From Halisarca cf. caerulea (lineage: Eukaryota > Porifera > Demospongiae > Chondrillida > Halisarcidae), in assembly GCA_963170055.1 (NCBI GenBank), contig CAUJGJ010000270.1:36001-100000 (forward strand): a stretch of 64,000 bases of DNA, in the 5' to 3' direction. The notes under the pieces are model-generated. The model made no database searches and was not told the origin of the DNA. It saw nothing but the letters and a program-made list of their open reading frames with translations. A program made the position numbers and the translations under genes. How positions within the stretch are numbered: position 1 is the first letter of the stretch; every line of letters begins with the position of its first letter. Of this stretch, positions 4,134 through 64,000 are shown one piece after another.

Positions 4134-4171
4134 TGACGTCACTTTCCTCGTGCGAATTTTACAGTTGGCAA
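4134..4171 (+). promoter_or_regulatory. CRE plus GTTGGCAA box upstream of the transposase gene
   Basis: TGACGTCA (4134-4141) is the palindromic cAMP-response-element core. GTTGGCAA follows at 4164-4171, and the transposase ATG is at 4196, about 55 bp after the CRE. The same two words in the same order precede the convergent YqaJ gene. This points either to a shared promoter or to inverted terminal sequence. Transcription itself is not shown. Confidence 0.55.
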
Positions 4172-4195
4172 AAATATATTAGTGCGCTTCGCAAA

Positions 4196-7987: not shown

Positions 7988-8336
<349 letters not shown>

Positions 8337-30789: not shown

Positions 30790-31190
30790 AGTAAGATTAG
30801 GACATGTTCTATCTTCTGAATTGACTTGCGCGTTTAAATTCAGATGTATAGACACGCGCCTTTTGCGTTTTTTCCTTATTTTGGTATGGTTGAAAATCGA
30901 CCATATACAACACGTACGATACGTTTTTGGCTCTTTTAAAATTAGCAACGTTAACATTTTTAAGAGACATTGGAATAGTTGTTTAAGCTGAAATTTCCAT
31001 TAAATGAAAGTTACTTAGAGCAGTTTGTAAGAAATTTGCAACTTTGACAATTTTATTCTTATGATAAAATTAAAATTATCAACATTAACAATTTTAAGAG
31101 ACATTGGAATACTTGTTTAAATAGAAATTTGCATTAAATGAAAGTTACTTATAGCAGTTTTTTAGAAATTTGCAACTTTGGCAATTTTAT

Positions 31191-33070
31191 TCTTATGCTA
31201 AAATTAAAATTAGCAACGTTAACATTTTTAAGAGACATTGGAATAGTTGTTTAAGCTGAAATTTGCATTAAATGAAAGTTACTTAGTTCACTTTTTAAGA
31301 AATTTGCAACTTTGGCAATTTTATTCTTGTGCTAAAATTAAAATTAGCAACGTTAACATTTTTAAGAGACATTGGAATAGTTGTTTAAGCTGAAATTTGC
31401 ATTAAATGAAAGTTACTTAGTTCACTTTTTAAGAAATTTGCAACTTTGGCAATTTTATTCTTATGCTAAAATTAAAATTAGCAACGTTAACATTTTTAAG
31501 AGACATTGGAATAGTTGTTTAAGCTGAAATTTGCATTAAATGAAAGTTACTTAGTTCACTTTTTAAGAAATTTGCAACTTTGGCAATTTTATTCTTGTGC
31601 TAAAATTAAAATTAGCAACGTTAACATTTTTAAGAGACATTGGAATAGTTGTTTAAGCTGAAATTTGCATTAAATGAAAGTTACTTAGTTCACTTTTTAA
31701 GAAATTTGCAACTTTGGCAATTTTATTCTTATGCTAAAATTAAAATTAGCAACGTTAACATTTTTAAGAGACATTGGAATAGTTGTTTAAGCTGAAATTT
31801 GCATTAAATGAAAGTTACTTAGTTCACTTTTTAAGAAATTTGCAACTTTGGCAATTTTATTCTTGTGCTAAAATTAAAATTAGCAACGTTAACATTTTTA
31901 AGAGACATTGGAATAGTTGTTTAAGCTGAAATTTGCATTAAATGAAAGTTACTTAGTTCACTTTTTAAGAAATTTGCAACTTTGGCAATTTTATTCTTAT
32001 GCTAAAATTCAAATTAGCAACGTTAACATTTTTAAGAGACATTGGAATAGTTGTTTAAGCTGAAATTTGCATTAAATGAAAGTTACTTAGTTCACTTTTT
32101 AAGAAATTTGCAACTTTGGCAATTTTATTCTTGTGCTAAAATTAAAATTAGCAACGTTAACATTTTTAAGAGACATTGGAATAGTTGTTTAAGCTGAAAT
32201 TTGCATTAAATGAAAGTTACTTAGTTCACTTTTTAAGAAATTTGCTACTTTGGCAATTTTATTCTTATGCTAAAATTAAAATTAGCAACGTTAACATTTT
32301 TAAGAGACATTGGAATAGTTGTTTAAGCTGAAATTTGCATTAAATGAAAGTTACTTAGTTCACTTTTTAAGAAATTTGCAACTTTGGCAATTTTATTCTT
32401 GTGCTAAAATTAAAATTAGCAACGTTAACATTTTTAAGAGACATTGGAATAGTTGTTTAAGCTGAAATTTGCATTAAATGAAAGTTACTTAGTTCACTTT
32501 TTAAGAAATTTGCAACTTTGGCAATTTTATTCTTATGCTAAAATTAAAATTAACAACGTTAACATTTTTAAGAGACATTGGAATAGTTGTTTAAGCTGAA
32601 ATTTGCATTAAATGAAAGTTACTTAGTTCACTTTTTAAGAAATTTGCAACTTTGGCAATTTCATTCTTGTGCTAAAATTAAAATTAGCAACGTTAACATT
32701 TTTAAGAGACATTGGAATAGTTGTTTAAGCTGAAATTTGCATTAAATGAAAGTTACTTAGTTCACTTTTTAAGAAATTTGCAACTTTGGCAATTTTATTC
32801 TTATGCTAAAATTAAAATTAGCAACGTTAACATTTTTAAGAGACATTGGAATAGTTGTTTAAGCTGAAATTTGCATTAAATGAAAGTTACTTAGTTCACT
32901 TTTTAAGAAATTTGCAACTTTGGCAATTTTATTCTTGTGCTAAAATTAAAATTAGCAACGTTAACATTTTTAAGAGACATTGGAATAGTTGTTTAAGCTG
33001 AAATTTGCATTAAATGAAAGTTACTTAGTTCACTTTTTAAGAAATTTGCTACTTTGGCAATTTTATTCTT
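31191..33070 (+). repeat. 268-bp dimeric higher-order block
   Basis: CTTATGC and CTTGTGC monomers alternate strictly for about 14 monomers (A forms at 31191, 31461, 31729, ...; G forms at 31327, 31595, 31863, ...). The alternation first breaks at ~33203. Confidence 0.9.
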
Positions 33071-36000
33071 ATGCTAAAATTCAATTTAGCAACGTTAACA
33101 TTTTTAAGAGACATTGGAATAGTTGTTTAAGCTGAAATTTGCATTAAATGAAAGTTACTTAGTTCACTTTTTAAGAAATTTGCTACTTTGGCAATTTTAT
33201 TCTTATGCTAAAATTCAAATTAGCAACGTTAACATTTTTAAGAGACATTGGAATAGTTGTTTAAGCTGAAATTTGCATTAAATGAAAGTTACTTAGTTCA
33301 CTTTTTAAGAAATTTGCAACTTCGGCAATTTTATTCTTGTGCTAAAATTAAAATTAGCAACGTTAACATTTTTAAGAGACATTGGAATAGTTGTTTAAGC
33401 TGAAATTTGCATTAAATGAAAGTTACTTAGTTCACTTTTTAAGAAATTTGCAACTTTGGCAATTTTATTCTTATGCTAAAATTAAAATTAGCAACGTTAA
33501 CATTTTTAAGAGACATTGGAATAGTAGTTTAAGCTGAAATTTGCATTAAATGAAAGTTACTTAGTTCACTTTTTAAGAAATTTGCTACTTTGGCAATTTT
33601 ATTCTTATGCTAAAATTAAAATTAGCAACGTTAACATTTTTAAGAGACATTGGAATAGTTGTTTAAGCTGAAATTTGCATTAAATGAAAGTTACTTAGTT
33701 CACTTTTTAAGAAATTTGCAACTTTGGCAATTTTATTCTTGTGCTAAAATTAAAATTAGCAACGTTAACATTTTTAAGAGACATTGGAATAGTTGTTTAA
33801 GCTGAAATTTGCATTAAATGAAAGTTACTTAGTTCACTTTTTAAGAAATTTGCAACTTTGGCAATTTTATTCTTATGCTAAAATTAAAATTAGCAACGTT
33901 AACATTTTTAAGAGACATTGGAATAGTTGTTTAAGCTGAAATTTGCATTAAATGAAAGTTACTTAGTTCACTTTTTAAGAAATTTGCAACTTTGGCAATT
34001 TTATTCTTATGCTAAAATTAAAATTAGCAACGTTAACATTTTTAAGAGACATTGGAATAGTTGTTTAAGCTGAAATTTGCATTAAATGAAAGTTACTTAG
34101 TTCACTTTTTAAGAAATTTGCAACTTTGGCAATTTTATTCTTATGCTAAAATTAAAATTAGCAACGTTAACATTTTTAAGAGACATTGGAAAAGTTGTTT
34201 AAGCTGAAATTTGCATTAAATGAAAGTTACTTAGTTCACTTTTTAAGAAATTTGCAACTTTGGCAATTTTATTCTTGTGCTAAAATTAAAATTAGCAACG
34301 TTAACATTTTTAAGAGACATTGGAATAGTAGTTTAAGCTGAAATTTGCATTAAATGAAAGTTACTTAGTTCACTTTTTAAGAAATTTGCTACTTTGGCAA
34401 TTTTATTCTTATGCTAAAATTAAAATTAGCAACGTTAACATTTTTAAGAGACATTGGAATAGTTGTTTAAGCTGAAATTTGCATTAAATGAAAGTTACTT
34501 AGTTCACTTTTTAAGAAATTTGCAACTTTGGCAATTTTATTCTTATGCTAAAATTAAAATTAGCAACGTTAACATTTTTAAGAGACATTGGAATAGTTGT
34601 TTAAGCTGAAATTTGCATTAAATGAAAGTTACTTAGTTCACTTTTTAAGAAATTTGCAACTTTGGCAATTTTATTCTTGTGCTAAAATTCAAATTAGCAA
34701 CGTTAACATTTTTAAGAGACATTGGAATAGTTGTTTAAGCTGAAATTTGCATTAAATGAAAGTTACTTAGTTCACTTTTTAAGAAATTTGCAACTTTGGC
34801 AATTTTATTCTTGTGCTAAAATTAAAATTAGCAACGTTAACATTTTTAAGAGACATTGGAATAGTTGTTTAAGCTGAAATTTGCATTAAATGAAAGTTAC
34901 TTAGTTCACTTTTTAAGAAATTTGCAACTTTGGCAATTTTATTCTTATGCTAAAATTAAAATTAGCAACGTTAACATTTTTAAGAGACATTGGAATAGTT
35001 GTTTAAGCTGAAATTTGCATTAAATGAAAGTTACTTAGTTCACTTTTTAAGAAATTTGCAACTTTGGCAATTTTATTCTTGTGCTAAAATTAAAATTAGC
35101 AACGTTAACATTTTTAAGAGACATTGGAATAGTTGTTTAAGCTGAAATTTGCATTAAATGAAAGTTACTTAGTTCACTTTTTAAGAAATTTGCAACTTTG
35201 GCAATTTTATTCTTGTGCTAAAATTAAAATTAGCAACGTTAACATTTTTAAGAGACATTGGAATAGTTGTTTAAGCTGAAATTTGCATTAAATGAAAGTT
35301 ACTTAGTTCACTTTTTAAGAAATTTGCTACTTTGGCAATTTTATTCTTATGCTAAAATTCAAATTAGCAACGTTAACATTTTTAAGAGACATTGGAATAG
35401 TTGTTTAAGCTGAAATTTGCATTAAATGAAAGTTACTTAGTTCACTTTTTAAGAAATTTGCAACTATGGCAATTTTATTCTTATGCTAAAATTAAAATTA
35501 GCAACGTTAACATTTTTAAGAGACATTGGAATAGTTGTTTAAGCTGAAATTTGCATTAAATGAAAGTTACTTAGTTCACTTTTTAAGAAATTTGCAACTT
35601 TGGCAATTTTATTCTTATGCTAAAATTAAAATTAGCAACGTTAACATTTTTAAGAGACATTGGAATAGTTGTTTAAGCTGAAATTTGCATTAAATGAAAG
35701 TTACTTAGTTCACTTTTTAAGAAATTTGCTACTTTGGCAATTTTATTCTTATGCTAAAATTCAAATTAGCAACGTTAACATTTTTAAGAGACATTGGAAT
35801 AGTTGTTTAAGCTGAAATTTGCATTAAATGAAAGTTACTTAGTTCACTTTTTAAGAAATTTGCAACTTTGGCAATTTTATTCTTATGCTAAAATTCAAAT
35901 TAGCAACGTTAACATTTTTAAGAGACATTGGAATTGTTGTTTAAGCTGAAATTTGCATTAAATGAAAGTTACTTAGTTCACTTTTTAAGAAATTTGCTAC

Positions 36001-39000
36001 TTTGGCAATTTTATTCTTATGCTAAAATTAAAATTAGCAACGTTAACATTTTTAAGAGACATTGGAATAGTTGTTTAAGCTGAAATTTGCATTAAATGAA
36101 AGTTACTTAGTTCACTTTTTAAGAAATTTGCTACTTTGGCAATTTTATTCTTATGCTAAAATTAAAATTAGCAACGTTAACATTTTTAAAAGACATTGGA
36201 ATAGTTGTTTAAGCTGAAATTTGCATTAAATGAAAGTTGCTTAGTTCACTTTTTAAGAAATTTGCAAGTTTGGCAATTTTATTCTTATGCTAAAATTAAA
36301 ATTAGCAACGTTAACATTTTTAAGAGACATTGGAATAGTTGTTTAAGCTGAAATTTGCATTAAATGAAAGTTACTTAGTTCACTTTTTAAGAAATTTGCA
36401 ACTTTGGCAATTTTATTCTTATGCTAAAATTAAAATTAGCAACGTTAACATTTTTAAGAGACCTTGGAATAGTTGTTTAAGCTGAAATTTGCATTAAATG
36501 AAAGTTACTTAGTTCACTTTTTAAGAAATTTGCTACTTTGGCAATTTTATTCTTATGCTAAAATTAGCAACGTTAACATTTTTAAGAGACATTGGAATAG
36601 TTGTTTAAGCTGAAATTTGCATTAAATGAAAGTTACTTAGTTCACTTTTTAAGAAATTTGCAAGTTTGGCAATTTTATTCTTATGCTAAAATTAAAATTA
36701 GCAACGTTAACATTTTTAAGAGACATTGGAATAGTTGTTTAAGCTGAAATTTGCATTAAATGAAAGTTACTTAGTTCACTTTTTAAGAAATTTGCTACTT
36801 TGGCAATTTTATTCTTATGCTAAAATTAAAATTAGCAACGTTAACATTTTTAAAAGACATTGGAATAGTTGTTTAAGCTGAAATTTGCATTAAATGAAAG
36901 TTACTTAGTTCACTTTTTAAGAAATTTGCAAGTTTGGCAATTTTATTCTTATGCTAAAATTAAAATTAGCAACGTTAACATTTTTAAGAGACATTGGAAT
37001 AGTTGTTTAAGCTGAAATTTGCATTAAATGAAAGTTACTTAGTTCACTTTTTAAGAAATTTGCAACTTTGGCTATTTTATTCTTATGCTAAAATTAAAAT
37101 TAGCAACGTTAACATTTTTAAGAGACATTGGAATAGTTGTTTTAGCTGAAATTTGCATTAAATGAAAGTTACTTAGTTCACTTTTTAAGAAATTTGCTAC
37201 TTTTGCAATTTTATTCTTATGCTAAAATTAAAATTAGCAACGTTAACATTTTTAAGAGACATTGGAATAGTTGTTTAAGCTGAAATTTGCATTAAATGAA
37301 AGTTACTTAGTTCACTTTTTAAGAAATTTGCAAGTTTGGCAATTTTATTCTTATGCTAAAATTAAAATTAGCAACGTTAACATTTTTAAGAGACCTTGGA
37401 ATAGTTGTTTAAGCTGAAATTTGCATTAAATGAAAGTTACTTAGTTCACTTTTTAAGAAATTTGCAACTTTGGCAATTTTATTCTTATGCTAAAATTAAA
37501 ATTAGCAACGTTAACATTTTTAAGAGACATTGGAATAGTTGTTTAAGCTGAAATTTGCATTAAATGAAAGTTACTTAGTTCACTTTTTAAGAAATTTGCA
37601 ACTTTGGCAATTTTATTCTTATGCTAAAATTAAAATTAGCAACGTTAACATTTTTAAGAGACATTGGAATAGTTGTTTAAGCTGAAATTTGCATTAAATG
37701 AAAGTTACTTAGTTCACTTTTTAAGAAATTTGCTACTTTGGCAATTTTATTCTTATGCTAAAATTAAAATTAGCAACGTTAACATTTTTAAGAGACATTG
37801 GAATAGTTGTTTAAGCTGAAATTTGCATTAAATGAAAGTTACTTAGTTCACTTTATAAGAAATTTGCTACTTTGGATATTTTATTCTTATGCTAAAATTA
37901 AAATTAGCAACGTTAACATTTTTAAGAGACATTGGAATAGTTGTTTAAGCTGAAATTTGCATTAAATGAAAGTTACTTAGTTCACTTTTTAAGAAATTTG
38001 CAACTTTGGCAATTTTATTCTTATGCTAAAATTCAAATTAGCAACGTTAACATTTTTAAGAGACATTGGAATTGTTGTTTAAGCTGAAATTTGCATTAAA
38101 TGAAAGTTACTTAGTTCACTTTTTAAGAAATTTGCTACTTTGGCAATTTTATTCTTATGCTAAAATTAAAATTAGCAACGTTAACATTTTTAAGAGACAT
38201 TGGAATAGTTGTTTAAGCTGAAATTTGCATTAAATGAAAGTTACTTAGTTCACTTTTTAAGAAATTTGCTACTTTGGCAATTTTATTCTTATGCTAAAAT
38301 TAAAATTAGCAACGTGAACATTTTTAAGAGACATTGGAATAGTTGTTTAAGCTGAAATTTGCATTAAATGAAAGTTACTTAGTTCACTTTTAAGAAATTT
38401 GCTACTTTGGCAATTTTATTCTTATGCTAAAATTAAAATTAGCAACGTTAACATTTTTAAGAGACATTGGAATAGTTGTTTAAGCTGAAATTTGCATTAA
38501 ATGAAAGTTACTTAGTTCACTTTTTAAGAAATTTGCAACTTTGGCAATTTTATTCTTATGCTAAAATTAAAATTAGCAACGTTAACATTTATAAGAGACA
38601 TTGGAATAGTTGTTTAAGCTGAAATTTGCATTAAATGAAAGTTACTTAGTTCACTTTTTAAGAAATTTGCTACTTTGGCAATTTTATTCTAATGCTAAAA
38701 TTAAAATTAGCAACGTTAACATTTTTAAGAGACATTGGAATAGTTGTTTAAGCTGAAATTTGCATTAAATGAAAGTTACTTAGTTCACTTTTTAAGAAAT
38801 TTGCAACTTTGGCAATTTTATTCTTATGCTAAAATTAAAATTAGCAACGTTAACATTTTTAAGAGACATTGGAATTGTTGTTTAAGCTGAAATTTGCATT
38901 AAATGAAAGTTACTTAGTTCACTTTTTAAGAAATTTGCTACTTTGGCAATTTTATTCTTATGCTAAAATTAAAATTAGCAACGTTAACATTTTTAAGAGA

Positions 39001-42000
39001 CATTGGAATTGTTGTTTAAGCTGAAATTTGCATTAAATGAAAGTTACTTAGTTCACTTTTTAAGAAATTTGCAACTTTGGCAATTTTATTCTTATGCTAA
39101 AATTAAAATTAGCAACGTTAACATTTTTAAGAGACATTGGAATAGTTGTTTAAGCTGAAATTTGCATTAAATGAAAGTTACTTAGTTCACTTTTTAAGAA
39201 ATTTGCAACTTTGGCAATTTTATTCTTATGCTAAAATTAAAATTAGCAACGTTAACATTTTTAAGAGACATTGGAATAGTTGTTTAAGCTGAAATTTGCA
39301 TTAAATGAAAGTTACTTAGTTCACTTTTTAAGAAATTTGCTACTTTGGCAATTTTATTCTTATGCTAAAATTAAAATTAGCAACGTTAACATTTTTAAGA
39401 GACATTGGAATAGTTGTTTAAGCTGAAATTTGCATTAAATGAAAGTTACTTAGTTCACTTTTTAAGAAATTTGCTACTTTGGCAATTTTATTCTTATGCT
39501 AAAATTAAAATTAGCAACGTTAACATTTTTAAGAGACATTGGAATAGTTGTTTAAGCTGAAATTTTCATTAAATGAAAGTTACTTAGTTCACTTTTTAAG
39601 AAATTTGCAACTTTGGCAATTTTATTCTTATGCTAAAATTAAAATTAGCAACGTTAACATTTTTAAGAGACATTGGAATAGTTGTTTAAGCTGAAATTTG
39701 CATTAAATGAAAGTTACTTAGTTCACTTTTTAAGAAATTTGCTACTTTGGCAATTTTATTCTTATGCTAAAATTAAAATTATCAACGTTAACATTTTTAA
39801 GAGACATTGGAATAGTTGTTTAAGCTGAAATTTGCATTAAATGAAAGTTACTTAGTTCACTTTTTAAGAAATTTGCAACTTTGGCAATTTTATTCTTATG
39901 CTAAAATTAAAATTAGCAACGTTAACATTTTTAAGAGACATTGGAATAGTTGTTTAAGCTGAAATTTGCATTAAATGAAAGTTACTTAGTTCACTTTTTA
40001 AGAAATTTGCAACTTTGGCAATTTTATTCTTATGCTAAAATTAAAATTAGCAACGTTAACATTTTTAAGAGACATTGGAATAGTTGTTTAAGCTGAAATT
40101 TGCATTAAATGAAAGTTACTTAGTTCACTTTTTAAGAAATTTGCTACTTTGGCAATTTTATTCTTATGCTAAAATTAAAATTAGCAACGTGAACATTTTT
40201 AAGAGACATTGGAATAGTTGTTTAAGCTGAAATTTGCATTAAATGAAAGTTACTTAGTTCACTTTTAAGAAATTTGCTACTTTGGCAATTTTATTCTTAT
40301 GCTAAAATTAAAATTAGCAACGTTAACATTTTTAAGAGACATTGGAATAGTTGTTTAAGCTGAAATTTGCATTAAATGAAAGTTACTTAGTTCACTTTTT
40401 AAGAAATTTGCAACTTTGGCAATTTTATTCTTATGCTAAAATTAAAATTAGCAACGTTAACATTTTTAAGAGACATTGGAATAGTTGTTTAAGCTGAAAT
40501 TTGCATTAAATGAAAGTTACTTAGTTCACTTTTTAAGAAATTTGCTACTTTGGCAATTTTATTCTTATGCTAAAATTAAAATTAGCAACGTTAACATTTT
40601 TAAGAGACATTGGAATAGTTGTTTAAGCTGAAATTTGCATTAAATGAAAGTTACTTAGTTCACTTTTTAAGAAATTTGCAACTTTGGCAATTTTATTCTT
40701 ATGCTAAAATTAAAATTAGCAACGTTAACATTTTTAAGAGACATTGGAATAGTTGTTTAAGCTGAAATTTGCATTAAATGAAAGTTACTTAGTTCACTTT
40801 TTAAGAAATTTGCAACTTTGGCAATTTTATTCTTATGCTAAAATTAAAATTAGCAACGTTAACATTTTTAAGAGACATTGGAATAGTTGTTTAAGCTGAA
40901 ATTTGCATTAAATGAAAGTTACTTAGTTCACTTTTTAAGAAATTTGCAACTTTGGCAATTTTATTCTTATGCTAAAATTAAAATTAGCAACGTTAACATT
41001 TTTAAGAGACATTGGAATAGTTGTTTAAGCTGAAATTTGCATTAAATGAAAGTTACTTAGTTCACTTTTTAAGAAATTTGCAACTTTGGCAATTTTATTC
41101 TTATGCTAAAATTAAAATTAGCAACGTTAACATTTTTAAGAGACATTGGAATAGTTGTTTAAGCTGAAATTTGCATTAAATGAAAGTTACTTAGTTCACT
41201 TTTTAAGAAATTTGCTACTTTGGCAATTTTATTCTTATGCTAAAATTAAAATTAGTAACGTTAACATTTTTAAGAGACATTGGAATAGTTGTTTAAGCTG
41301 AAATTTGCATTAAATGAAAGTTACTTAGTTCACTTTTTAAGAAATTTGCTACTTTGGCAATTTTATTCTTCTGCTAAAATTAAAATTAGCAACGTTAACA
41401 TTTTTAAGAGACATTGGAATAGTTGTTTAAGCTGAAATTTGCATTAAATGAAAGTTATTTAGTTCACTTTTTAAGAAATTTGCTACTTTGGCAATTTTAT
41501 TCTTATGCTAAAATTAAAATTAGCAACGTTAACATTTTTGAGAGACATTGGAATAGTTGTTTAAGCTGAAATTTGCATTAAATGAAAGTTACTTAGTTCA
41601 CTTTTTAAGAAATTTGCAACTTTGGCAATTTTATTCTTGTGCTAAAATTAAAATTAGCAACGTTAACATTTTTAAGAGACATTGGAATAGTTGTTTAAGC
41701 TGAAATTTGCATTAAATGAAAGTTACTTAGTTCACTTTTTAAGAAATTTGCAACTTTGGCAATTTTATTCTTATGCTAAAATTAAAATTAGCAACGTTAA
41801 CATTTTTAAGAGACATTGGAATAGTTGTTTAAGCTGAAATTTGCATTAAATGAAAGTTACTTAGTTCACTTTTTAAGAAATTTGCAACTTTGGCAATTTT
41901 ATTCTTATGCTAAAATTCAATTTAGCAACGTTAACATTTTTAAGAGACATTGGAATAGTTGTTTAAGCTGAAATTTGCATTAAATGAAAGTTACTTAGTT

Positions 42001-42570
42001 CACTTTTTAAGAAATTTGCTACTTTGGCAATTTTATTCTTATGCTAAAATTAAAATTAGCAACGTTAACATTTTTAAGAGACATTGGAATAGTTGTTTAA
42101 GCTGAAATTTGCATTAAATGAAAGTTACTTAGTTCACTTTTTAAGAAATTTGCAAGTTTGGCAATTTTATTCTTATGCTAAAATTCAAATTAGCAACGTT
42201 AACATTTTTAAGAGACATTGGAATAGTTGTTTAAGCTGAAATTTGCATTAAATGAAAGTTACTTAGTTCACTTTTTAAGAAATTTGCAACTTTGGCAATT
42301 TTATTCTTATGCTAAAATTAAAATTAGCAACGTTAACATTTTTAAGAGACATTGGAATAGTTGTTTAAGCTGAAATTTGCATTAAATGAAAGTTACTTAG
42401 TTCACTTTTTAAGAAATTTGCTACTTTGGCAATTTTATTCTTATGCTAAAATTCAAATTAGCAACGTTAACATTTTTAAGAGACATTGGAATAGTTGTTT
42501 AAGCTGAAATTTGCATTAAATGAAAGTTACTTAGTTCACTTTTTAAGAAATTTGCAACTTTGGCAATTTT

Positions 42571-45500
42571 ATTCTCATGCTAAAATTAAAATTAGCAACG
42601 TTAACATTTTTAAGAGACATTGGAATAGTTGTTTAAGCTGAAATTTGCATTAAATGAAAGTTACTTAGTTCACTTTTTAAGAAATTTGAAACTTTGGCAA
42701 TTTTATTCTTATGCTAAAATTAAAATTAGCAACGTTAACATTATTAAGAGAAATTGGAATAGTTGTTTAAGCTGAAATTTGCATTAAATGAAAGTTACTT
42801 AGTTCACTTTTTAAGAAATTTGCAACTTTGGCAATTTTATTCTTATGCTAAAATTAAAATTAGCAACGTTAACATTTTTAAGAGACATTGGAATAGTTGT
42901 TTAAGCTGAAATTTGCATTAAATGAAAGTTACTTAGTTCACTTTTTAAGAAATTTGAAACTTTGGCAATTTTATTCTTATGCTAAAATTAAAATTAGCAA
43001 CGTTAACATTTTTAAGAGACATTGGAATAGTTGTTTAAGCTGAAATTTGCATTAAATGAAAGTTACTTAGTTCACTTTTTAAGAAATTTGAAACTTTGGC
43101 AATTTTATTCTTATGCTAAAATTAAAATTAGCAACGTTAACATTATTAAGAGAAATTGGAATAGTTGTTTAAGCTGAAATTTGCATTAAATGAAAGTTAC
43201 TTAGTTCACTTTTTAAGAAATTTGCAACTTTGGCAATTTTATTCTTATGCTAAAATTAAAATTAGCAACGTTAACATTTTTAAGAGACATTGGAATAGTT
43301 GTTTAAGCTGAAATTTGCATTAAATGAAAGTTACTTAGTTCACTTTTTAAGAAATTTGAAACTTTGGCAATTTTATTCTTATGCTAAAATTAAAATTAGC
43401 AACGTTAACATTTTTAAGAGACATTGGAATAGTTGTTTAAGCTGAAATTTGCATTAAATGAAAGTTACTTAGTTCACTTTTTAAGAAATTTGCAACTTTG
43501 GCAATTTTATTCTTGTGCTAAAATTAAAATTAGCAACGTTAACATTTTTAAGAGACATTGGAATAGTTGTTTAAGCTGAAATTTGCATTAAATGAAAGTT
43601 ACTTAGTTCACTTTTTAAGAAATTTGCAACTTTGGCAATTTTATTCTTATGCTAAAATTAAAATTAGCAACGTTAACATTTTTAAGAGACATTGGAATAG
43701 TTGTTTAAGCTGAAATTTGCATTAAATGAAAGTTACTTAGTTCACTTTTTAAGAAATTTGCAACTTTGGCAATTTTATTCTTGTGCTAAAATTAAAATTA
43801 GCAACGTTAACATTTTTAAGAGACATTGGAATAGTTGTTTAAGCTGAAATTTGCATTAAATGAAAGTTACTTAGTTCACTTTTTAAGAAATTTGCAACTT
43901 TGGCAATTTTATTCTTATGCTAAAATTAAAATTAGCAACGTTAACATTTTTAAGAGACATTGGAATAGTTGTTTAAGCTGAAATTTGCATTAAATGAAAG
44001 TTACTTAGTTCACTTTTTAAGAAATTTGCAACTTTGGCAATTTTATTCTTGTGCTAATATTAAAATTAGCAACGTTAACATTTTTAAGAGACATTGGAAT
44101 AGTTGTTTAAGCTGAAATTTGCATTAAATGAAAGTTACTTAGTTCACTTTTTAAGAAATTTGCTACTTTGGCAATTTTATTCTTATGCTAAAATTAAAAT
44201 TAGCAACGTTAACATTTTTAAGAGACATTGGAATAGTTGTTTAAGCTGAAATTTGCATTAAATGAAAGTTACTTAGTTCACTTTTTAAGAAATTTGCTAC
44301 TTTGGCAATTTTATTCTTATGCTAAAATTCAAATTAGCAACGTTAACATTTTTAAGAGACATTGGAATAGTTGTTTAAGCTGAAATTTGCATTAAATGAA
44401 AGTTACTTAGTTCACTTTTTAAGAAATTTGCAACTTTGGCAATTTTATTCTCATGCTAAAATTAAAATTAGCAACGTTAACATTTTTAAGAGACATTGGA
44501 ATAGTTGTTTAAGCTGAAATTTGCATTAAATGAAAGTTACTTAGTTCACTTTTTAAGAAATTTGCTACTTTGGCAATTTTATTCTTATGCTAAAATTCAA
44601 ATTAGCAACGTTAACATTTTTAAGAGACATTGGAATAGTTGTTTAAGCTGAAATTTGCATTAAATGAAAGTTACTTAGTTCACTTTTTAAGAAATTTGCT
44701 ACTTTGGCAATTTTATTCTTATGCTAAAATTCAATTTAGCAACGTTAACATTTTTAAGAGACATTGGAATAGTTGTTTAAGCTGAAATTTGCATTAAATG
44801 AAAGTTACTTAGTTCACTTTTTAAGAAATTTGAAACTTTGGCAATTTTATTCTTATGCTAAAATTAAAATTAGCAACGTTAACATTATTAAGAGAAATTG
44901 GAATAGTTGTTTAAGCTGAAATTTGCATTAAATGAAAGTTACTTAGTTCACTTTTTAAGAAATTTGCAACTTTGGCAATTTTATTCTTATGCTAAAATTA
45001 AAATTAGCAACGTTAACATTTTTAAGAGACATTGGAATAGTTGTTTAAGCTGAAATTTGCATTAAATGAAAGTTACTTAGTTCACTTTTTAAGAAATTTG
45101 AAACTTTGGCAATTTTATTCTTATGCTAAAATTAAAATTAGCAACGTTAACATTTTTAAGAGACATTGGAATAGTTGTTTAAGCTGAAATTTGCATTAAA
45201 TGAAAGTTACTTAGTTCACTTTTTAAGAAATTTGCAACTTTGGCAATTTTATTCTTGTGCTAAAATTAAAATTAGCAACGTTAACATTTTTAAGAGACAT
45301 TGGAATAGTTGTTTAAGCTGAAATTTGCATTAAATGAAAGTTACTTAGTTCACTTTTTAAGAAATTTGCAACTTTGGCAATTTTATTCTTATGCTAAAAT
45401 TAAAATTAGCAACGTTAACATTTTTAAGAGACATTGGAATAGTTGTTTAAGCTGAAATTTGCATTAAATGAAAGTTACTTAGTTCACTTTTTAAGAAATT

Positions 45501-46735
45501 TGCAACTTTGGCAATTTTATTCTTGTGCTAAAATTAAAATTAGCAACGTTAACATTTTTAAGAGACATTGGAATAGTTGTTTAAGCTGAAATTTGCATTA
45601 AATGAAAGTTACTTAGTTCACTTTTTAAGAAATTTGCAACTTTGGCAATTTTATTCTTATGCTAAAATTAAAATTAGCAACGTTAACATTTTTAAGAGAC
45701 ATTGGAATAGTTGTTTAAGCTGAAATTTGCATTAAATGAAAGTTACTTAGTTCACTTTTTAAGAAATTTGCAACTTTGGCAATTTTATTCTTGTGCTAAT
45801 ATTAAAATTAGCAACGTTAACATTTTTAAGAGACATTGGAATAGTTGTTTAAGCTGAAATTTGCATTAAATGAAAGTTACTTAGTTCACTTTTTAAGAAA
45901 TTTGCTACTTTGGCAATTTTATTCTTATGCTAAAATTAAAATTAGCAACGTTAATATTTTTAAGAGACATTGGAATAGTTGTTTAAGCTGAAATTTGCAT
46001 TAAATGAAAGTTACTTAGTTCACTTTTTAAGAAATTTGCTACTTTGGCAATTTTATTCTTATGCTAAAATTCAAATTAGCAACGTTAACATTTTTAAGAG
46101 ACATTGGAATAGTTGTTTAAGCTGAAATTTGCATTAAATGAAAGTTACTTAGTTCACTTTTTAAGAAATTTGCAACTTTGGCAATTTTATTCTCATGCTA
46201 AAATTAAAATTAGGAACGTTAACATTTTTAAGAGACATTGGAATAGTTGTTTAAGCTGAAATTTGCATTAAATGAAAGTTACTTAGTTCACTTTTTAAGA
46301 AATTTGCTACTTTGGCAATTTTATTCTTATGCTAAAATTCAAATTAGCAACGTTAACATTTTTAAGAGACATTGGAATAGTTGTTTAAGCTGAAATTTGC
46401 ATTAAATGAAAGTTACTTAGTTCACTTTTTAAGAAATTTGCTACTTTGGCAATTTTATTCTTATGCTAAAATTCAATTTAGCAACGTTAACATTTTTAAG
46501 AGACATTGGAATAGTTGTTTAAGCTGAAATTTGCATTAAATGAAAGTTACTTAGTTCACTTTTTAAGAAATTTGCTACTTTGGCAATTTTATTCTTATGC
46601 TAAAATTCAAATTAGCAACGTTAACATTTTTAAGAGACATTGGAATAGTTGTTTAAGCTGAAATTTGCATTAAATGAAAGTTACTTAGTTCACTTTTTAA
46701 GAAATTTGCAACTTTGGCAATTTTATTCTCATGCT
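42571..46735 (+). repeat. 1742-bp (13-mer) higher-order block
   Basis: Rare variants recur exactly 1742 bp apart, 13 x 134: GTGCTAATAT at 44051 and 45793, CATTATTAAG at 43141 and 44883, ATTCTCATGC at 44447 and 46189. The CATTATTAAG monomer also recurs 402 bp apart (42739 and 43141), showing a nested 3-monomer duplication. Confidence 0.9.
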
Positions 46736-53520: not shown

Positions 53521-53589
53521 TGCTACTTTGGCAATTTTATTCTTATGCTAAAATTAAAATTAGCAACGTTAACATTTTTAAGAGACATT

Positions 53590-56580
53590 GGAATAGTTGT
53601 TTAAGCGGAAATTTGCATTAAATGAAAGTTACTTAGTTCACTTTTTAAGAAATTTGCTACTTTGGCAATTTTATTCTTATGCTAAAATTAAAATTAGCAA
53701 CGTTAACATTTTTAAGAGACATTGGAATAGTTGTTTAAGCTGAAATTTTCATTAAATGAAAGTTACTTAGTTCACTTTTTAAGAAATTTGCAACTTTGGC
53801 AATTTTATTCTTATGCTAAAATTAAAATTAGCAACGTTAACATTTTTAAGAGACGTTGGAATAGTTGTTTAAGCTGAAATTTGCATTAAATGAAAGTTAC
53901 TTAGTTCACTTTTTAAGAAATTTGCAACTTTGGCAATTTTATTCTTATGCTAAAATTAAAATTAGCAACGTTAACATTTTTAAGAGACATTGGAATAGTT
54001 GTTTAAGCTGAAATTTGCATTAAATGAAAGTTACTTAGTTCACTTTTTAAGAAATTTGCAACTTTGGCAATTTTATTCTTATGTTAAAATTAAAATTAGC
54101 AACGTTAACATTTTTAAGAGACATTGGAATAGTTGTTTAAGCTGAAATTTGCATTAAATGAAAGTTACTTAGTTCACTTTTTAAGAAAATTGCAACTTTG
54201 GCAATTTTATTCTTATGCTAAAATTAAAATTAGCAACGTTAACATTTGTAAGAGACATTGGAATAGTAGTTTAAGCTGAAATTTGCATTAAATGAAAGTT
54301 ACTTAGTTCACTTTTAAGAAATTTGCTACTTTGTCAATTTTATTCTTATGCTAAAATTAAAATTAGCAACGTTAACATTTTTAAGAGACATTGGAATAGT
54401 TGTTTAAGCTGAAATTTGCATTAAATGAAAGTTACTTAGTTCACTTTTTAAGAAATTTGCAACTTTGGCAATTTTATTCTTATGTTAAAATTAAAATTAG
54501 CAACGTTAACATTTTTAAGAGACATTGGAATAGTTGTTTAAGCTGAAATTTGCATTAAATGAAAGTTACTTAGTTCACTTTTTAAGAAATTTGCAACTTT
54601 GGCAATTTTATTCTTATGCTAAAATTAAAATTAGCAACGTTAACATTTTTAAGAGACATTGGAATAGTTGTTTAAGCTGAAATTTGCATTAAATGAAAGT
54701 TACTTAGTTCACTTTTAAGAAATTTGCTACTTTGGCAATTTTATTCTTATGCTAAAATTAAAATTAGCAACGTTAACATTTTTAAGAGACATTGGAATAG
54801 TAGTTTAAGCTGAAATTTGCATTAAATGAAAGTTACTTACTTCACTTTTTAAGAAAATTGCAACTTTGGCAATTTTATTCTTATGCTAAAATTAAAATTA
54901 GCAACGTTAACATTTTTAAGAGACATTGGAATAGTTGTTTAAGCTGAAATTTGCATTAAATGAAAGTTACTTAGTTCACTTTTAAGAAATTTGCTACTTT
55001 GGCAATTTTATTCTTATGCTAAAATTAAAATTAGCAACGTTAACATTTTTAAGAGACATTGGAATAGTTGTTTAAGCGGAAATTTCCATTAAATGAAAGT
55101 TACTTAGTTCACTTTTTAAGAAATTTGCTACTTTGGCAATTTTATTCTTATGCTAAAATTAAAATTAGCAACGTTAACATTTTTAAGAGACATTGGAATA
55201 GTTGTTTAAGCTGAAATTTTCATTAAATGAAAGTTACTTAGTTCACTTTTTAAGAAATTTGCAACTTTGGCAATTTTATTCTTATGCTAAAATTAAAATT
55301 AGCAACGTTAACATTTTTAAGAGACGTTGGAATAGTTGTTTAAGCTGAAATTTGCATTAAATGAAAGTTACTTAGTTCACTTTTTAAGAAATTTGCAACT
55401 TTGGCAATTTTATTCTTATGCTAAAATTAAAATTAGCAACGTTAACATTTTTAAGAGACATTGGAATAGTTGTTTAAGCTGAAATTTGCATTAAATGAAA
55501 GTTACTTAGTTCACTTTTTAAGAAATTTGCAACTTTGGCAATTTTATTCTTATGTTAAAATTAAAATTAGCAACGTTAACATTTTTAAGAGACATTGGAA
55601 TAGTTGTTTAAGCTGAAATTTGCATTAAATGAAAGTTACTTAGTTCACTTTTTAAGAAAATTGCAACTTTGGCAATTTTATTCTTATGCTAAAATTAAAA
55701 TTAGCAACGTTAACATTTGTAAGAGACATTGGAATAGTAGTTTAAGCTGAAATTTGCATTAAATGAAAGTTACTTAGTTCACTTTTAAGAAATTTGCTAC
55801 TTTGTCAATTTTATTCTTATGCTAAAATTAAAATTAGCAACGTTAACATTTTTAAGAGACATTGGAATAGTTGTTTAAGCTGAAATTTGCATTAAATGAA
55901 AGTTACTTAGTTCACTTTTTAAGAAATTTGCAACTTTGGCAATTTTATTCTTATGTTAAAATTAAAATTAGCAACGTTAACATTTTTAAGAGACATTGGA
56001 ATAGTTGTTTAAGCTGAAATTTGCATTAAATGAAAGTTACTTAGTTCACTTTTTAAGAAATTTGCAACTTTGGCAATTTTATTCTTATGCTAAAATTAAA
56101 ATTAGCAACGTTAACATTTTTAAGAGACATTGGAATAGTTGTTTAAGCTGAAATTTGCATTAAATGAAAGTTACTTAGTTCACTTTTAAGAAATTTGCTA
56201 CTTTGGCAATTTTATTCTTATGCTAAAATTAAAATTAGCAACGTTAACATTTTTAAGAGACATTGGAATAGTTGTTTAAGCTGAAATTTGCATTAAATGA
56301 AAGTTACTTAGTTCACTTTTTAAGAAAATTGCAACTTTGGCAATTTTATTCTTATGCTAAAATTAAAATTAGCAACGTTAACATTTTTAAGAGACATTGG
56401 AATAGTTGTTTAAGCTGAAATTTGCATTAAATGAAAGTTACTTAGTTCACTTTTTAAGAAAATTGCAACTTTGGCAATTTTATTCTTATGCTAAAATTAA
56501 AATTAGCAACGTTAACATTTGTAAGAGACATTGGAATAGTAGTTTAAGCTGAAATTTGCATTAAATGAAAGTTACTTAGT
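53590..56580 (+). repeat. 1471-bp (11-mer) higher-order block
   Basis: AGACGTTGG (53851, 55322), AACATTTGTA (54241, 55712) and TTGTCAATTT (54331, 55802) all recur with offset 1471 bp, i.e. eleven monomers less three single-base losses. AGACGTTGG recurs again at 57463. Confidence 0.9.
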
Positions 56581-59500
56581 TCACTTTTAAGAAATTTGCT
56601 ACTTTGTCAATTTTATTCTTATGCTAAAATTAAAATTAGCAACGTTAACATTTTTAAGAGACATTGGAATAGTAGTTTAAGCTGAAATTTGCATTAAATG
56701 AAAGTTACTTAGTTCACTTTTTAAGAAATTTGCAACTTTGGCAATTTTATTCTTATGCTAAAATTAAAATTAGCAACGTTAACATTTTTAAGAGACATTG
56801 GAATAGTTGTTTAAGCTGAAATTTGCATTAAATGAAAGTTACTTAGTTCACTTTTTAAGAAATTTGCAACTTTGGCAATTTTATTCTTATGCTAAAATTA
56901 AAATTAGCAACGTTAACATTTTTAAGAGACATTGGAATAGTTGTTTAAGCTGAAATTTGCATTAAATGAAAGTTACTTAGTTCACTTTTTAAGAAATTTG
57001 CAACTTTGGCAATTTTATTCTTATGCTAAAATTAAAATTAGCAACGTTAACATTTTTAAGAGACATTGGAATAGTTGTTTAAGCTGAAATTTGCATTAAA
57101 TGAAAGTTACTTAGTTCACTTTTTAAGAAATTTGCTACTTTGGCAATTTTATTCTTATGCTAAAATTAAAATTAGCAACGTTAACATTTTTAAGAGATAT
57201 TGGAATAGTTGTTTAAGCTGAAATTTGCATTAAATGAAAGTTACTTAGTTCACTTTTTAAGAAATTTGCAACTTTGGCAATTTTATTCTTATGCTAAAAT
57301 TAAAATTAGCAACGTTAACATTTTTAAGAGACATTGGAATAGTTGTTTAAGCTGAAATTTGCATTAAATGAAAGTTACTTAGTTCACTTTTTAAGAAAAT
57401 TGCAACTTTGGCAATTTTATTCTTATGCTAAAATTAAAATTAGCAACGTTAACATTTTTAAGAGACGTTGGAATAGTTGTTTAAGCTGAAATTTTCATTA
57501 AATGAAAGTTACTTAGTTCACTTTTTAAGAAATTTGCAACTTTGGCAATTTTATTCTTATGCTAAAATTAAAATTAGCAACGTTAACATTTTTAAGAGAC
57601 ATTGGAATAGTTGTTTAAGCTGAAATTTGCATTAAATGAAAGTTACTTAGTTCACTTTTTAAGAAATTTGCAACTTTGGCAATTTTATTCTTATGTTAAA
57701 ATTAAAATTAGCAACGTTAACATTTTTAAGAGACATTGGAATAGTTGTTTAAGCTGAAATTTGCATTAAATGAAAGTTACTTAGTTCACTTTTTAAGAAA
57801 TTTGCAACTTTGGCAATTTTATTCTTATGCTAAAATTAAAATTAGCAACGTTAACATTTTTAAGAGACATTGGAATAGTTGTTTAAGCTGAAATTTGCAT
57901 TAAATGAAAGTTACTTAGTTCACTTTTAAGAAATTTGCTACTTTGGCAATTTTATTCTTATGCTAAAATTAAAATTAGCAACGTTAACATTTTTAAGAGA
58001 CATTGGAATAGTTGTTTAAGCTGAAATTTGCATTAAATGAAAGTTACTTAGTTCACTTTTTAAGAAAATTGCAACTTTGGCAATTTTATTCTTATGCTAA
58101 AATTAAAATTAGCAACGTTAACATTTTTAAGAGACATTGGAATAGTTGTTTAAGCTGAAATTTTCATTAAATGAAAGTTACTTAGTTCACTTTTTAAGAA
58201 AATTGCAACTTTGGCAATTTTATTCTTATGCTAAAATTAAAATTAGCAACGTTAACATTTTTAAGAGACATTGGAATAGTAGTTTAAGCTGAAATTTGCA
58301 TTAAATGAAAGTTACTTAGTTCACTTTTAAGAAATTTGCTACTTTGTCAATTTGATTCTTATGCTAAAATTAAAATTAGCAACGTTAACATTTTTAAGAG
58401 ACATTGGAATAGTAGTTTAAGCTGAAATTTGCATTAAATGAAAGTTACTTAGTTCACTTTTTAAGAAATTTGCAACTTTGGCAATTTTATTCTTATGCTA
58501 AAATTAAAATTAGCAACGTTAACATTTTTAAGAGACATTGGAATAGTTGTTTAAGCTGAAATTTGCATTAAATGAAAGTTACTTAGTTCACTTTTTAAGA
58601 AATTTGCAACTTTGGCAATTTTATTCTTATGCTAAAATTAAAATTAGCAACGTTAACATTTTTAAGAGACATTGGAATAGTTGTTTAAGCTGAAATTTGC
58701 ATTAAATGAAAGTTACTTAGTTCACTTTTTAAGAAATTTGCAACTTTGGCAATTTTATTCTTATGCTAAAATTAAAATTAGCAACGTTAACATTTTTAAG
58801 AGACATTGGAATAGTTGTTTAAGCTGAAATTTGCATTAAATGAAAGTTACTTAGTTCACTTTTTAAGAAATTTGCTACTTTGGCAATTTTATTCTTATGC
58901 TAAAATTAAAATTAGCAACGTTAACATTTTTAAGAGACATTGGAATAGTTGTTTAAGCTGAAATTTGCATTAAATGAAAGTTACTTAGTTCACTTTTTAA
59001 GAAATTTGCAACTTTGGCAATTTTATTCTTATGCTAAAATTAAAATTAGCAACGTTAACATTTTTAAGAGACATTGGAATAGTTGTTTAAGCTGAAATTT
59101 GCATTAAATGAAAGTTACTTAGTTCACTTTTTAAGAAAATTGCAACTTTGGCAATTTTATTCTTATGCTAAAATTAAAATTAGCAACGTTAACATTTTTA
59201 AGAGACATTGGAATAGTTGTTTAAGCTGAAATTTGCATTAAATGAAAGTTACTTAGTTCACTTTTAAGAAATTTGCTACTTTGGCAATTTTATTCTTATG
59301 CTAAAATTAAAATTAGCAACGTTAACATTTTTAAGAGACATTGGAATAGTTGTTTAAGCTGAAATTTGCATTAAATGAAAGTTACTTAGTTCACTTTTTA
59401 AGAAATTTGCAACTTTGGCAATTTTATTCTTATGCTAAAATTAAAATTAGCAACGTTAACATTTTTAAGAGACATTGGAATAGTTGTTTAAGCTGAAATT

Positions 59501-60331
59501 TGCATTAAATGAAAGTTACTTAGTTCACTTTTTAAGAAATTTGCTACTTTGGCAATTTTATTCTTATGCTAAAATTAAAATTAGCAACGTTAACATTTTT
59601 AAGAGACATTGGAATAGTTGTTTAAGCTGAAATTTTCATTAAATGAAAGTTACTTAGTTCACTTTTTAAGAAATTTGCAACTTTGGCAATTTTATTCTTA
59701 TGCTAAAATTAAAATTAGCAACGTTAACATTTTTAAGAGACATTGGAATAGTTGTTTAAGCTGAAATTTGCATTAAATGAAAGTTACTTAGTTCACTTTT
59801 TAAGAAATTTGCTACTTTGGCAATTTTATTCTTATGCTAAAATTCAAATTAGCAACGTTAACATTTTTAAGAGACATTGTAATAGTTGTTTAAGCTGAAA
59901 TTTGCATTAAATGAAAGTTACTTAGTTCACTTTTTAAGAAATTTGCTACTTTGGCAATTTTATTCTTATGCTAAAATTAAAATTAGCAACGTTAACATTT
60001 TTAAGAGACATTGGAATAGTTGTTTAAGCTGAAATTTGCATTAAATGAAAGTTACTTAGTTCACTTTTTAAGAAATTTGCAACTTTGGCAATTTTATTCT
60101 TATGCTAAAATTAAAATTAGCAACGTTAACATTTTTAAGAGACATTGGAATAGTTGTTTAAGCTGAAATTTGCATTAAATGAAAGTTACTTAGTTCACTT
60201 TTTAAGAAATTTGCAACTTTGGCAATTTTATTCTTATGCTAAAATTAAAATTAGCAACGTTAACATTTTTAAGAGACATTGGAATAGTTGTTTAAGCTGA
60301 AATTTGCATTAAATGAAAGTTACTTAGTTCA

Positions 60332-62940
60332 CTTATAAGAAATTTGCTACTTTGGCAATTTTATTCCTATGCTAAAATTAAAATTAGCAGCGTTAACATT
60401 TTTAAGAGACATTGGAATAGTTGTTTAAGCTGAAATTTGCATTAAATGAAAGTTACTTAGTTCACTTTTAAGAAATTTGCTACTTTGGCAATTTTATTCT
60501 TATGCTAAAATTAAAATTAGCAACGTTAACATTTTTAAGAGACATTGGAATAGTTGTTTAAGCTGAAATTTGCATTAAATGAAAGTTACTTAGTTCACTT
60601 TTTAAGAAATTTGCTACTTTGGCAATTTTATTCTTATGCTAAAATTAAAATTAGCAACGTTAACATTTTTAAGAGACATTGGAATAGTTGTTTAAGCTGA
60701 AATTTTCATTAAATGAAAGTTACTTAGTTCACATTTTAAGAAATTTGCAACTTTGGCAATTTTATTCTTATGCTAAAATTAAAATTAGCAACGTTAACAT
60801 TTTTAAGACATTGGAATAGTTGTTTAAGCTGAAATTTGCATTAAATGAAAGTTACTTAGTTCACTTATAAGAAATTTGCTACTTTGGCAATTTTATTCCA
60901 ATGCTAAAATTAAAATTAGCAGCGTTAACATTTTTAAGAGACATTGGAATAGTTGTTTAAGCTGAAATTTGCATTAAATGAAAGTTACTTAGTTCACTTT
61001 TTAAGAAATTTGCTACTTTGGCAATTTTATTCTTATGCTAAAATTAAAATTAGCAACGTTAACATTTTTAAGAGACATTGGAATAGTTGTTTAAGCTGAA
61101 ATTTGCATTAAATGAAAGTTACTTAGTTCACTTTTTAAGAAATTTGCAACTTTGGCAATTTTATTCTTATGCTAAAATTCAAATTAGCAACGTTAACATT
61201 TTTAAGAGACATTGGAATAGTTGTTTAAGCTGAAATTTGCATTAAATGAAAGTTACTTAGTTCACTTTTTAAGAAATTTGCTACTTTGGCAATTTTATTC
61301 TTATGCTAAAATTAAAATTAGCAACGTTAACATTTTTAAGAGACATTGGAATAGTTGTTTAAGCTGAAATTTTCATTAAATGAAAGTTACTTAGTTCACT
61401 TTTTAAGAAATTTGCAACTTTGGCAATTTTATTCTTATGCTAAAATTAAAATTAGCAACGTTAACATTTTTAAGACATTGGAATAGTTGTTTAAGCTGAA
61501 ATTTGCATTAAATGAAAGTTACTTAGTTCACTTATAAGAAATTTGCTACTTTGGCAATTTTATTCCTATGCTAAAATTAAAATTAGCAGCGTTAACATTT
61601 TTAAGAGACATTGGAATAGTTGTTTAAGCTGAAATTTGCATTAAATGAAAGTTACTTAGTTCACTTTTTAAGAAATTTGCTACTTTGGCAATTTTATTCT
61701 TATGCTAAAATTAAAATTAGCAACGTTAACATTTTTAAGAGACATTGGAATAGTTGTTTAAGCTGAAATTTGCATTAAATGAAAGTTACTTAGTTCACTT
61801 TTTAAGAAATTTGCTACTTTGGCAATTTTATTCCTATGCTAAAATTAAAATTAGCAGCGTTAACATTTTTAAGAGACATTGGAATAGTTGTTTAAGCTGA
61901 AATTTGCATTAAATGAAAGTTACTTAGTTCACTTTTTAAGAAATTTGCTACTTTGGCAATTTTATTCTTATGCTAAAATTAAAATTAGCAACGTTAACAT
62001 TTTTAAGAGACATTGGAATAGTTGTTTAAGCTGAAATTTGCATTAAATGAAAGTTACTTAGTTCACTTATAAGAAATTTGCTACTTTGGCAATTTTATTC
62101 CTATGCTAAAATTAAAATTAGCAGCGTTAACATTTTTAAGAGACATTGGAATAGTTGTTTAAGCTGAAATTTGCATTAAATGAAAGTTACTTAGTTCACT
62201 TTTTAAGAAATTTGCTACTTTGGCAATTTTATTCTTATGCTAAAATTAAAATTAGCAACGTTAACATTTTTAAGAGACATTGGAATAGTTGTTTAAGCTG
62301 AAATTTGCATTAAATGAAAGTTACTTAGTTCACTTTTTAAGAAATTTGCTACTTTGGCAATTTTATTCCTATGCTAAAATTAAAATTAGCAGCGTTAACA
62401 TTTTTAAGAGACATTGGAATAGTTGTTTAAGCTGAAATTTGCATTAAATGAAAGTTACTTAGTTCACTTTTTAAGAAATTTGCTACTTTGGCAATTTTAT
62501 TCTTATGCTAAAATTAAAATTAGCAACGTTAACATTTTTAAGAGACATTGGAATAGTTGTTTAAGCTGAAATTTGCATTAAATGAAAGTTACTTAGTTCA
62601 CTTTTTAAGAAATTTGCTACTTTGGCAATTTTATTCTTATGCTAAAATTAAAATTAGCAACGTTAACATTTTTAAGAGACATTGTAATAGTTGTTTAAGC
62701 TGAAATTTGCATTAAATGAAAGTTACTTAGTTCACTTTTTAAGAAATTTGCAACTTTGGCAATTTTATTCTTATGCTAAAATTAAAATTAGCAACGTTAA
62801 CATTTTTAAGAGACATTGGAATAGTTGTTTAAGCTGAAATTTGCATTAAATGAAAGTTACTTAGTTCACTTATAAGAAATTTGCTACTTTGGCAATTTTA
62901 TTCCTATGCTAAAATTAAAATTAGCAGCGTTAACATTTTT
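60332..62940 (+). repeat. Variant-rich distal block (ATTCCTATGC / GCAGCG monomers)
   Basis: Monomers with ATTCCTATGC followed by GCAGCG appear at 60363, 61562, 61830, 62097, 62365 and 62900. Spacings between 61562 and 62365 are 268, 267 and 268 bp, a second, independent dimeric pattern. CACTTATAAG is linked to several of them. Confidence 0.85.
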
Positions 62941-64000
62941 AAGAGACATTGGAATAGTTGTTTAAGCTGAAATTTGCATTAAATGAAAGTTACTTAGTTC
63001 ACTTTTAAGAAATTTGCTACTTTGGCAATTTTATTCTTATGCTAAAATTAAAATTAGCAACGTTAACATTTTTAAGAGACATTGGAATAGTTGTTTAAGC
63101 TGAAATTTGCATTAAATGAAAGTTACTTAGTTCACTTTTTAAGAAATTTGCAACTTTGGCAATTTTATTCTTATGCTAAAATTAAAATTAGCAACGTTAA
63201 CATTTTTAAGAGACATTGGAATAGTTGTTTAAGCTGAAATTTGCATTAAATGAAAGTTACTTAGTTCACTTTTTAAGAAATTTGCAACTTTGGCAATTTT
63301 ATTCTTATGCTAAAATTAAAATTAGCAACGTTAACATTTTTAAGAGACATTGGAATAGTTGTTTAAGCTGAAATTTGCATTAAATGAAAGTTACTTAGTT
63401 CACTTTTTAAGAAATTTGCAACTTTGGCAATTTTATTCTTATGCTAAAATTAAAATTAGCAGCGTTAACATTTTTAAGAGACATTGGAATAGTTGTTTAA
63501 GCTGAAATTTGCATTAAATGAAAGTTACTTAGTTCACTTTTTAAGAAATTTGCTACTTTGGCAATTTTATTCTTATGCTAAAATTAAAATTAGCAACGTT
63601 AACATTTTTAAGAGACATTGGAATAGTTGTTTAAGCTGAAATTTGCATTAAATGAAAGTTACTTAGTTCACTTTTTAAGAAATTTGCAACTTTGGCCATT
63701 TTATTCTTATGCTAAAATTAAAATTAGCAACGTTAACATTTTTAAGAGACATTGGAATAGTTGTTTAAGCTGAAATTTGCATTAAATGAAAGTTACTTAG
63801 TTCACTTTTTAAGAAATTTGCAACTTTGGCAATTTTATTCTTATGCTAAAATTAAAATTAGCAACGTTAACATTTTTAAGAGACATTGGAATAGATGTTT
63901 AAGCTGAAATTTGCATTAAATGAAAGTTACTTAGTTCACTTTTTAAGAAATTTGCAACTTTGGCAATTTTATTCTTATGCTAAAATTAAAATTAGCAACG

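Follow-up and report, generated by a model that had tools for sequence, protein, structure and literature searches.

A homogenised 134-bp satellite in layered, probably centromeric or pericentromeric blocks of the sponge Halisarca caerulea

Introduction

Does a 33-kb run of one short repeat at the end of a sponge contig belong to a centromere? The question is raised by a stretch of 64,000 nucleotides (the window) from Halisarca caerulea, deposited as Halisarca cf. caerulea in assembly GCA_963170055.1 (194.47 Mb, 454 contigs). Contig C454 of this assembly (19,152 bases) bears a mitochondrial COX1 gene in which TGA reads as tryptophan, and the best relative of that gene is a Demospongiae cluster at 93% identity. 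The window corresponds to bases 36001-100000 of the 100,000-base contig CAUJGJ010000270.1, referred to here as C253, and its positions 30936-64000 are filled by a 134-bp repeat that we named s134. An earlier note, made from the letters of the window, had read this array as probably centromeric or pericentromeric. We find that the array is certainly satellite DNA, that s134 recurs in blocks on several contigs, and that these blocks, judged by their architecture, are best read as centromere or pericentromere, a reading that we consider probable.

Results

The window array

Analysis of positions 30936-64000 with Tandem Repeats Finder (TRF) gave a period of 134, 247.1 copies, 98% matches and a score of 63,491. 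Wrap-around alignment to a cyclic consensus yielded 248 pieces, 247 of which are near-complete monomers arranged head to tail. The approximately 247 head-to-tail monomers over 33 kb described in the earlier note were thus borne out, with a start that was one base off, as was its estimate of about 75% AT (75.4% for the consensus). An Rfam scan of the window gave no matches, and no inserted element was found in the s134 stretch, in agreement with the claim that the array contains no transposon, although sister arrays on contigs C346 and C89 do carry inserts. With 247.1 copies of a non-coding monomer placed head to tail along 33 kb, the array is satellite DNA. Given that the contig end cuts through the array, 33 kb is a lower bound for its length.

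The period proved less rigid than had been supposed. The site GTTAAC is found 241 times inside the array and 6 times elsewhere in the window, and 208 of the 240 intervals between successive sites measure 134 bp; the others are 133 bp (22), 128 bp (3), 131 bp (2) or about two or three monomers long (5). A digest at GTTAAC would nevertheless be predicted to produce the 134-bp ladder that had been proposed. Monomers differ from the consensus by a mean of 1.18% and from each other by a mean of 2.09%, and the array has internal structure at several scales, as listed below (window positions).

30936..64000, + strand: s134 satellite array, 247.1 copies of 134 bp, running past the contig end (TRF, monomer alignment)
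30936..31231, + strand: array edge, where a 28-bp partial monomer is followed by two divergent ones that carry 10 and 9 differences (monomer alignment)
31232..33375, + strand: near-edge stretch with a mostly regular switch between G and A at column 97, a 268-bp dimer (variant list)
43016..46499, + strand: 13-monomer higher-order repeat (1,742 bp), two copies of which share a run of 8 identical monomers
53716..56657, + strand: 11-monomer higher-order repeat (1,471 bp), two copies of which share a run of 8 identical monomers

Monomer likeness at lags 1, 2, 11 and 13 was above that of all 200 shuffles of monomer order, and 37 distinct types were present among the 150 window monomers of exactly 134 bp. 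A single higher-order repeat for the whole array was rejected, given that the best lag shifts along its length.

s134 across the genome

Copies of s134 were counted with a 29-base monomer word, allowing up to 3 mismatches and with the reversed word as control. The word occurs 5,723 times (2,491 forward and 3,232 reverse), compared with no occurrence of the control. Its arrays, the largest of about 210 kb, are spread over at least seven contigs, and several of them are internal to scaffolds, so that confinement of the monomer to one locus, which the earlier note had named as grounds for abandoning its reading, is excluded. Arrays beyond the window were sampled at points rather than read through, and the blocks given here and below are at least those found.

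C253 66,936-100,000, + strand: s134 array at the contig end
C346 base 1 to 26,562, + strand: s134 array with a 731-bp insert near its right end
C265 501,363-589,649, + strand: s134 array at the contig end
C89 1,187,585 to between 1,400,300 and 1,403,000, - strand: s134 array
C412 4,440,352-4,524,730, + strand: first s134 array on this contig
C412 from between 4,855,300 and 4,862,001 to 5,075,979, - strand: second s134 array
C118, + strand: s134 seen at 810,001, 840,001 and 870,001
C69 901,010-903,333: small s134 array
C412 7,767,273-7,767,923: small s134 array

Judged from their lengths, the two large arrays on the reverse strand should contain about 3,200 of the 3,232 reverse copies; for the forward arrays the corresponding figure is about 2,200-2,500 of 2,491. 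Not many more large s134 arrays are therefore to be expected. The 133-bp type has variants with G or T at one column, which were considered as a sign of a new locus and rejected, all 33 copies being reverse and located on C89 and C412. Viral contigs contained no exact match to the 29-base word. Two other short-period tandem repeats were seen on C69, at stretches L050 (980,001) and L051 (1,020,001), no more than 120 kb away from the small s134 array on that contig.

Array-specific homogenisation and older edges

We compared 913 sampled monomers in five groups: C253 together with C346 (321), C265 (221), the second C412 array (207), C89 (148) and C69 (16); the C118 and first C412 arrays were not part of this comparison. 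Nearest-neighbour purity by group was 0.998-1.000, and mean pairwise divergence was 2.0-4.3% within groups versus 5.4-11.9% between them. Each array is therefore homogenised in its own right, as concerted evolution of satellite DNA entails. C253 and C346 share one s134 subfamily on the same strand, with the array at the right end of the former and at the left end of the latter, and they are probably the two sides of one array split by the assembly.

Column 100 of the monomer distinguishes edges from interiors. The consensus of C265, C412, C89 and C69 has A at this position, whereas C replaces it in the C253 array. Only one of the 247 window monomers retains A, namely the outermost full monomer. 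On C346, A is present in three of four edge monomers and in 11 of 74 monomers of a 10-kb sample, all 11 in the half nearer the edge. Given that the edges keep the widely shared A, they look older than the interior.

The array on C89 contains a 639-bp element with inverted ends in two copies (stretch L022:3011-3649 and 4582-5220), which are identical at 639 of 639 positions, lie 1,571 bp apart and occupy the same array position. The identity of these inserts indicates that the element inserted once and that a segment containing 7 monomers was then amplified. The local higher-order duplications, the homogenisation, the older edges and this duplicated insert are products of unequal exchange and segmental amplification. 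The insert on C346 is a 731-bp element with inverted ends at the right array edge (stretch L014:399-1129), shortly before the border with A145, a related satellite described next.

A satellite superfamily arranged in layers

Five related satellites with monomers of 123-147 bp were recognised: s134, D123 (123 bp), a 145-bp type that fills an array on C40 (the C40 type), B147 (146-147 bp) and A145 (145 bp). Relatedness was judged by local alignment score against 300 dinucleotide-preserving shuffles, the largest shuffle score being given in brackets. A145 scored 41 (30) with s134, 33 (23) with B147, 90 (29) with the C40 type and 31 (18) with D123; s134 scored 43 (23) with D123, and the C40 type 22 (18) with D123. 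The score of s134 with the C40 type, 23, was reached by 2 of the 300 shuffles. No homology of B147 with s134, the C40 type or D123 was detectable by this procedure; a direct link between s134 and B147 was accordingly rejected, and the two connect through A145. The orientations that give these scores agree with one another across the families. A145 is related to all four other families, as expected of an old type, and among the matches listed it is located at block edges only, with the exception of one isolated relative on C1. Its word occurs 13 times, whereas that of B147 occurs 1,567 times (1,190 forward, 377 reverse, none for the control).

These relatives border the s134 cores. A145, at 90% TRF matches, lies just outside s134 on the right of C346 and on the left of C265. 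B147 lies outside s134 on the left side of C89 and the right side of the second C412 array, and it flanks the first C412 array and the C118 array to the left as well as to the right. Beyond B147, copies of A145 type or C40 type are found at C412 4,560,547, C412 5,087,982 and C118 892,011, and the order from core to B147 to A145 type is thus present on all three sides that show all three (the right sides of the two C412 blocks and of C118). Other cores have similar surroundings. D123 was seen on C175 from 450,001 to 497,023 (+ strand) and at 639,061-644,257 (- strand), with B147 on both sides, and the array of about 90 kb on C40 has A145 copies at both ends. Further B147 is present on at least C280, C83, C3, C30, C373 and C392. 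Its copies on C392, a 14-kb contig, are spaced about 439 bp apart at about 469-5567, a distance that points to a trimeric higher-order repeat.

Leaving aside arrays of only a few monomers, s134 cores have 95-98% TRF matches, and A145 layers have 90%. At the C89 edge both s134 and B147 fall to 82-84%, yet one B147 patch there reaches 95%, and B147 samples on C412 range over 89-97%. The age gradient is therefore clear for A145 and for the C89 edge and mixed for B147 (82-97%). The arrangement of core, B147 and A145 resembles the layered expansions of human centromeres, albeit with 147-bp layers of differing age. In three of the four blocks with both repeats oriented (C89, C118 and the second on C412, but not the first on C412), s134 and B147 point in opposite directions. 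This speaks for a new repeat having been seeded rather than for a gradual change of the neighbouring one.

Paired cores in opposite orientation were observed at C412 4.44-5.08 Mb (s134) and C175 0.45-0.65 Mb (D123). Sampling between the paired cores, at eleven points with readable sequence on C412 and at one on C175, revealed no satellite. These opposed pairs are either real inverted pairs or scaffolding errors.

The flank of the window array

The description of the flank as dense in transposons was supported. Twenty open reading frames (ORFs) of at least 150 amino acids lie to the left of the array in the window, and 13 of them were scanned with Pfam, of which 4 matched transposase or reverse transcriptase and 9 had no match; three further ORFs, from the part of C253 outside the window, were scanned as well, and all had a reverse transcriptase or integrase match. 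The matches located in the window were as follows.

2453..2950, + strand: reverse transcriptase fragment (RVT_1, 23.9 bits, under the curated cut-off of 29.6)
4843..5583, + strand: transposase, DDE_Tnp_4 with HTH_Tnp_4 (Pfam E = 1.9e-49)
9188..12358, + strand: reverse transcriptase in two adjoining open stretches (RVT_1, E = 3.2e-08 and 5.7e-10) with zf-RVT (E = 2.4e-08)

The reverse transcriptase at 9188..12358 is presumably of the non-LTR (long terminal repeat) type. The flank also contains a CA dinucleotide repeat of 340 bp at 7988-8328, a 279-bp unit in two repeats with 91% matches (TRF) at 21553-22119, and, at 6372-7289 on the - strand, an open stretch of 305 amino acids that had no Pfam match and that we take to resemble a SWIM zinc-finger protein.

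Discussion

The centromeric or pericentromeric reading of the earlier note has been strengthened by the size of the arrays, their scaffold-specific homogenisation, the higher-order repeats, the older edges and the related layers on several scaffolds, with function itself still an inference. On this reading, the window would be the left edge of a young, homogenised s134 core that forms part of a layered block on one chromosome of Halisarca caerulea. Unequal exchange and segmental amplification would keep renewing the core, older copies would be left behind at its edges as it renews, and new cores would be seeded within old blocks. Nucleosomes containing cenH3 may assemble on the core, as they do on alpha satellite. 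The blocks found are about as numerous as the chromosomes, which are estimated at 9-17 for an assembly that has not reached chromosome level (PMC12391866).

Several observations weigh against this interpretation. At 134 bp per copy, s134 amounts to about 0.77 Mb, or 0.39% of the assembly, and tiny arrays exist elsewhere (C69 and C412 at 7.77 Mb). C412 carries two large s134 cores and C175 two D123 cores, that is, more than one per scaffold, although scaffolds are not chromosomes. The ages of the B147 layers are mixed, and neither B147 nor A145 was found in the 66.9 kb of C253 to the left of the array. The mammalian type of CENP-B box, TTCGNNNNANNCGGG, had no match on either strand of the window. 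Centromere satellites that lack this box have been modelled as rich in dyads or hairpins, and none of the five monomers showed an excess of hairpins over shuffles (z = +0.27, -0.58, -1.07, -0.54 and -0.66). Nor do we claim a conserved protein-binding element around AAGATATTTACAATGTTGG across the five families, no element being significantly conserved: of five widths in block permutation, windows of 18 to 36 columns gave P = 0.077-0.16 and that of 48 columns gave P = 0.024, and the block is more variable in the window array than the rest of the monomer (4.57 vs 2.43 substitutions per column).

Some of these observations are shared by the strongest competing explanation, that of a heterochromatic satellite outside the centromere, with knob-like blocks on chromosome arms grown by unequal exchange and the kinetochore elsewhere. 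The presence of two distinct cores on C412 and again on C175, the dispersed tiny arrays, the small s134 total and the mixed B147 ages are all compatible with such knobs. They would leave unaccounted for the fact that, on several scaffolds, related layers follow one another in the same order, and for the presence of three different cores inside related borders; moreover, no competing centromeric repeat is known in this genome, though none was searched for. We therefore regard heterochromatic knobs as a serious but rather unlikely explanation.

A subtelomeric origin is far less probable. It would fit the arrays at the contig ends of C253, C346 and C265 and the B147 near the contig ends of C3 and C30, but contig ends within arrays are expected assembly breaks. 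Blocks lie 4.3-5.1 Mb into the 8.7-Mb scaffold C412 and inside C89, C40, C175 and C118, and neither a run of at least three TTAGGG or CCCTAA units nor one of at least four TTAGG units was present in C253 or the other sampled stretches. To a similarly small degree can we credit a tandem repeat that was born inside a transposon and spread by it: the small arrays on C69 and at C412 7.77 Mb and the transposon-rich surroundings might suggest this, but in a non-exhaustive look no transposon flank was common to the arrays, whose borders are other satellites or differing sequence. That the assembly falsely expanded a short repeat, as the contig ends inside the array might imply, is scarcely credible for an assembly made from HiFi (high-fidelity) data (PMC12391866, in part) and for an array with 37 types among its 150 exact 134-bp monomers, ordered variants, higher-order repeats and scaffold-specific variants.

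Within the centromeric or pericentromeric reading, a more specific proposal is that s134, D123 and the C40 type each took over the core on different chromosomes beside shared B147/A145 shells, with new cores often seeded in inverted orientation relative to the shell, such that the superfamily is in turnover. We put this forward as a speculation that is more doubtful than the knob explanation.

Alpha satellite of primates has a monomer of about 171 bp. The sponge blocks differ from it in having monomers of 123-147 bp, cores that measure from tens of kb to about 210 kb, higher-order repeats that are local, several core families in one genome and no CENP-B box in the window. The likeness considered here is one of architecture: as far as alpha satellite is covered in the available part of PMC12321929, both combine monomers that are AT-rich and 120-180 bp long with homogenised cores specific to chromosomes, higher-order repeats and more divergent relatives outward, and the same nested architecture of layered expansions is described there for human centromeres.

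The kind of satellite is thus already known, whereas the superfamily and its organisation in a sponge appear to be new as far as the literature was searched. No centromeric satellite from a sponge was found among the titles and abstracts listed from open-licence literature, which is weak evidence of novelty. Of two genome papers from the same phylum, neither names a satellite in its main text: that of Ephydatia muelleri uses the word "centromere" once, for a likely point of scaffold splitting, and "satellite" not at all (main text of PMC7385117), and that of Halisarca caerulea contains none of "repeat", "satellite", "centromer" and "karyotype" (main text of PMC12391866).

The s134, D123, C40-type and B147 repeats are ready probes for fluorescence in situ hybridisation (FISH) and for cleavage under targets and release using nuclease (CUT&RUN), and they would be of use in completing the assembly, for which chromosome level was out of its authors' reach (PMC12391866). 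Should the blocks prove to be centromeres, one of the earliest-branching animal lineages would share the nested arrangement of human centromeres. Under the turnover proposal, and provided that the pairs on C412 and C175 do not stem from scaffolding errors, the centromeres concerned would be built on an inverted-repeat plan, and layered expansion would either be older than the divergence between sponges and other animals or have arisen more than once.

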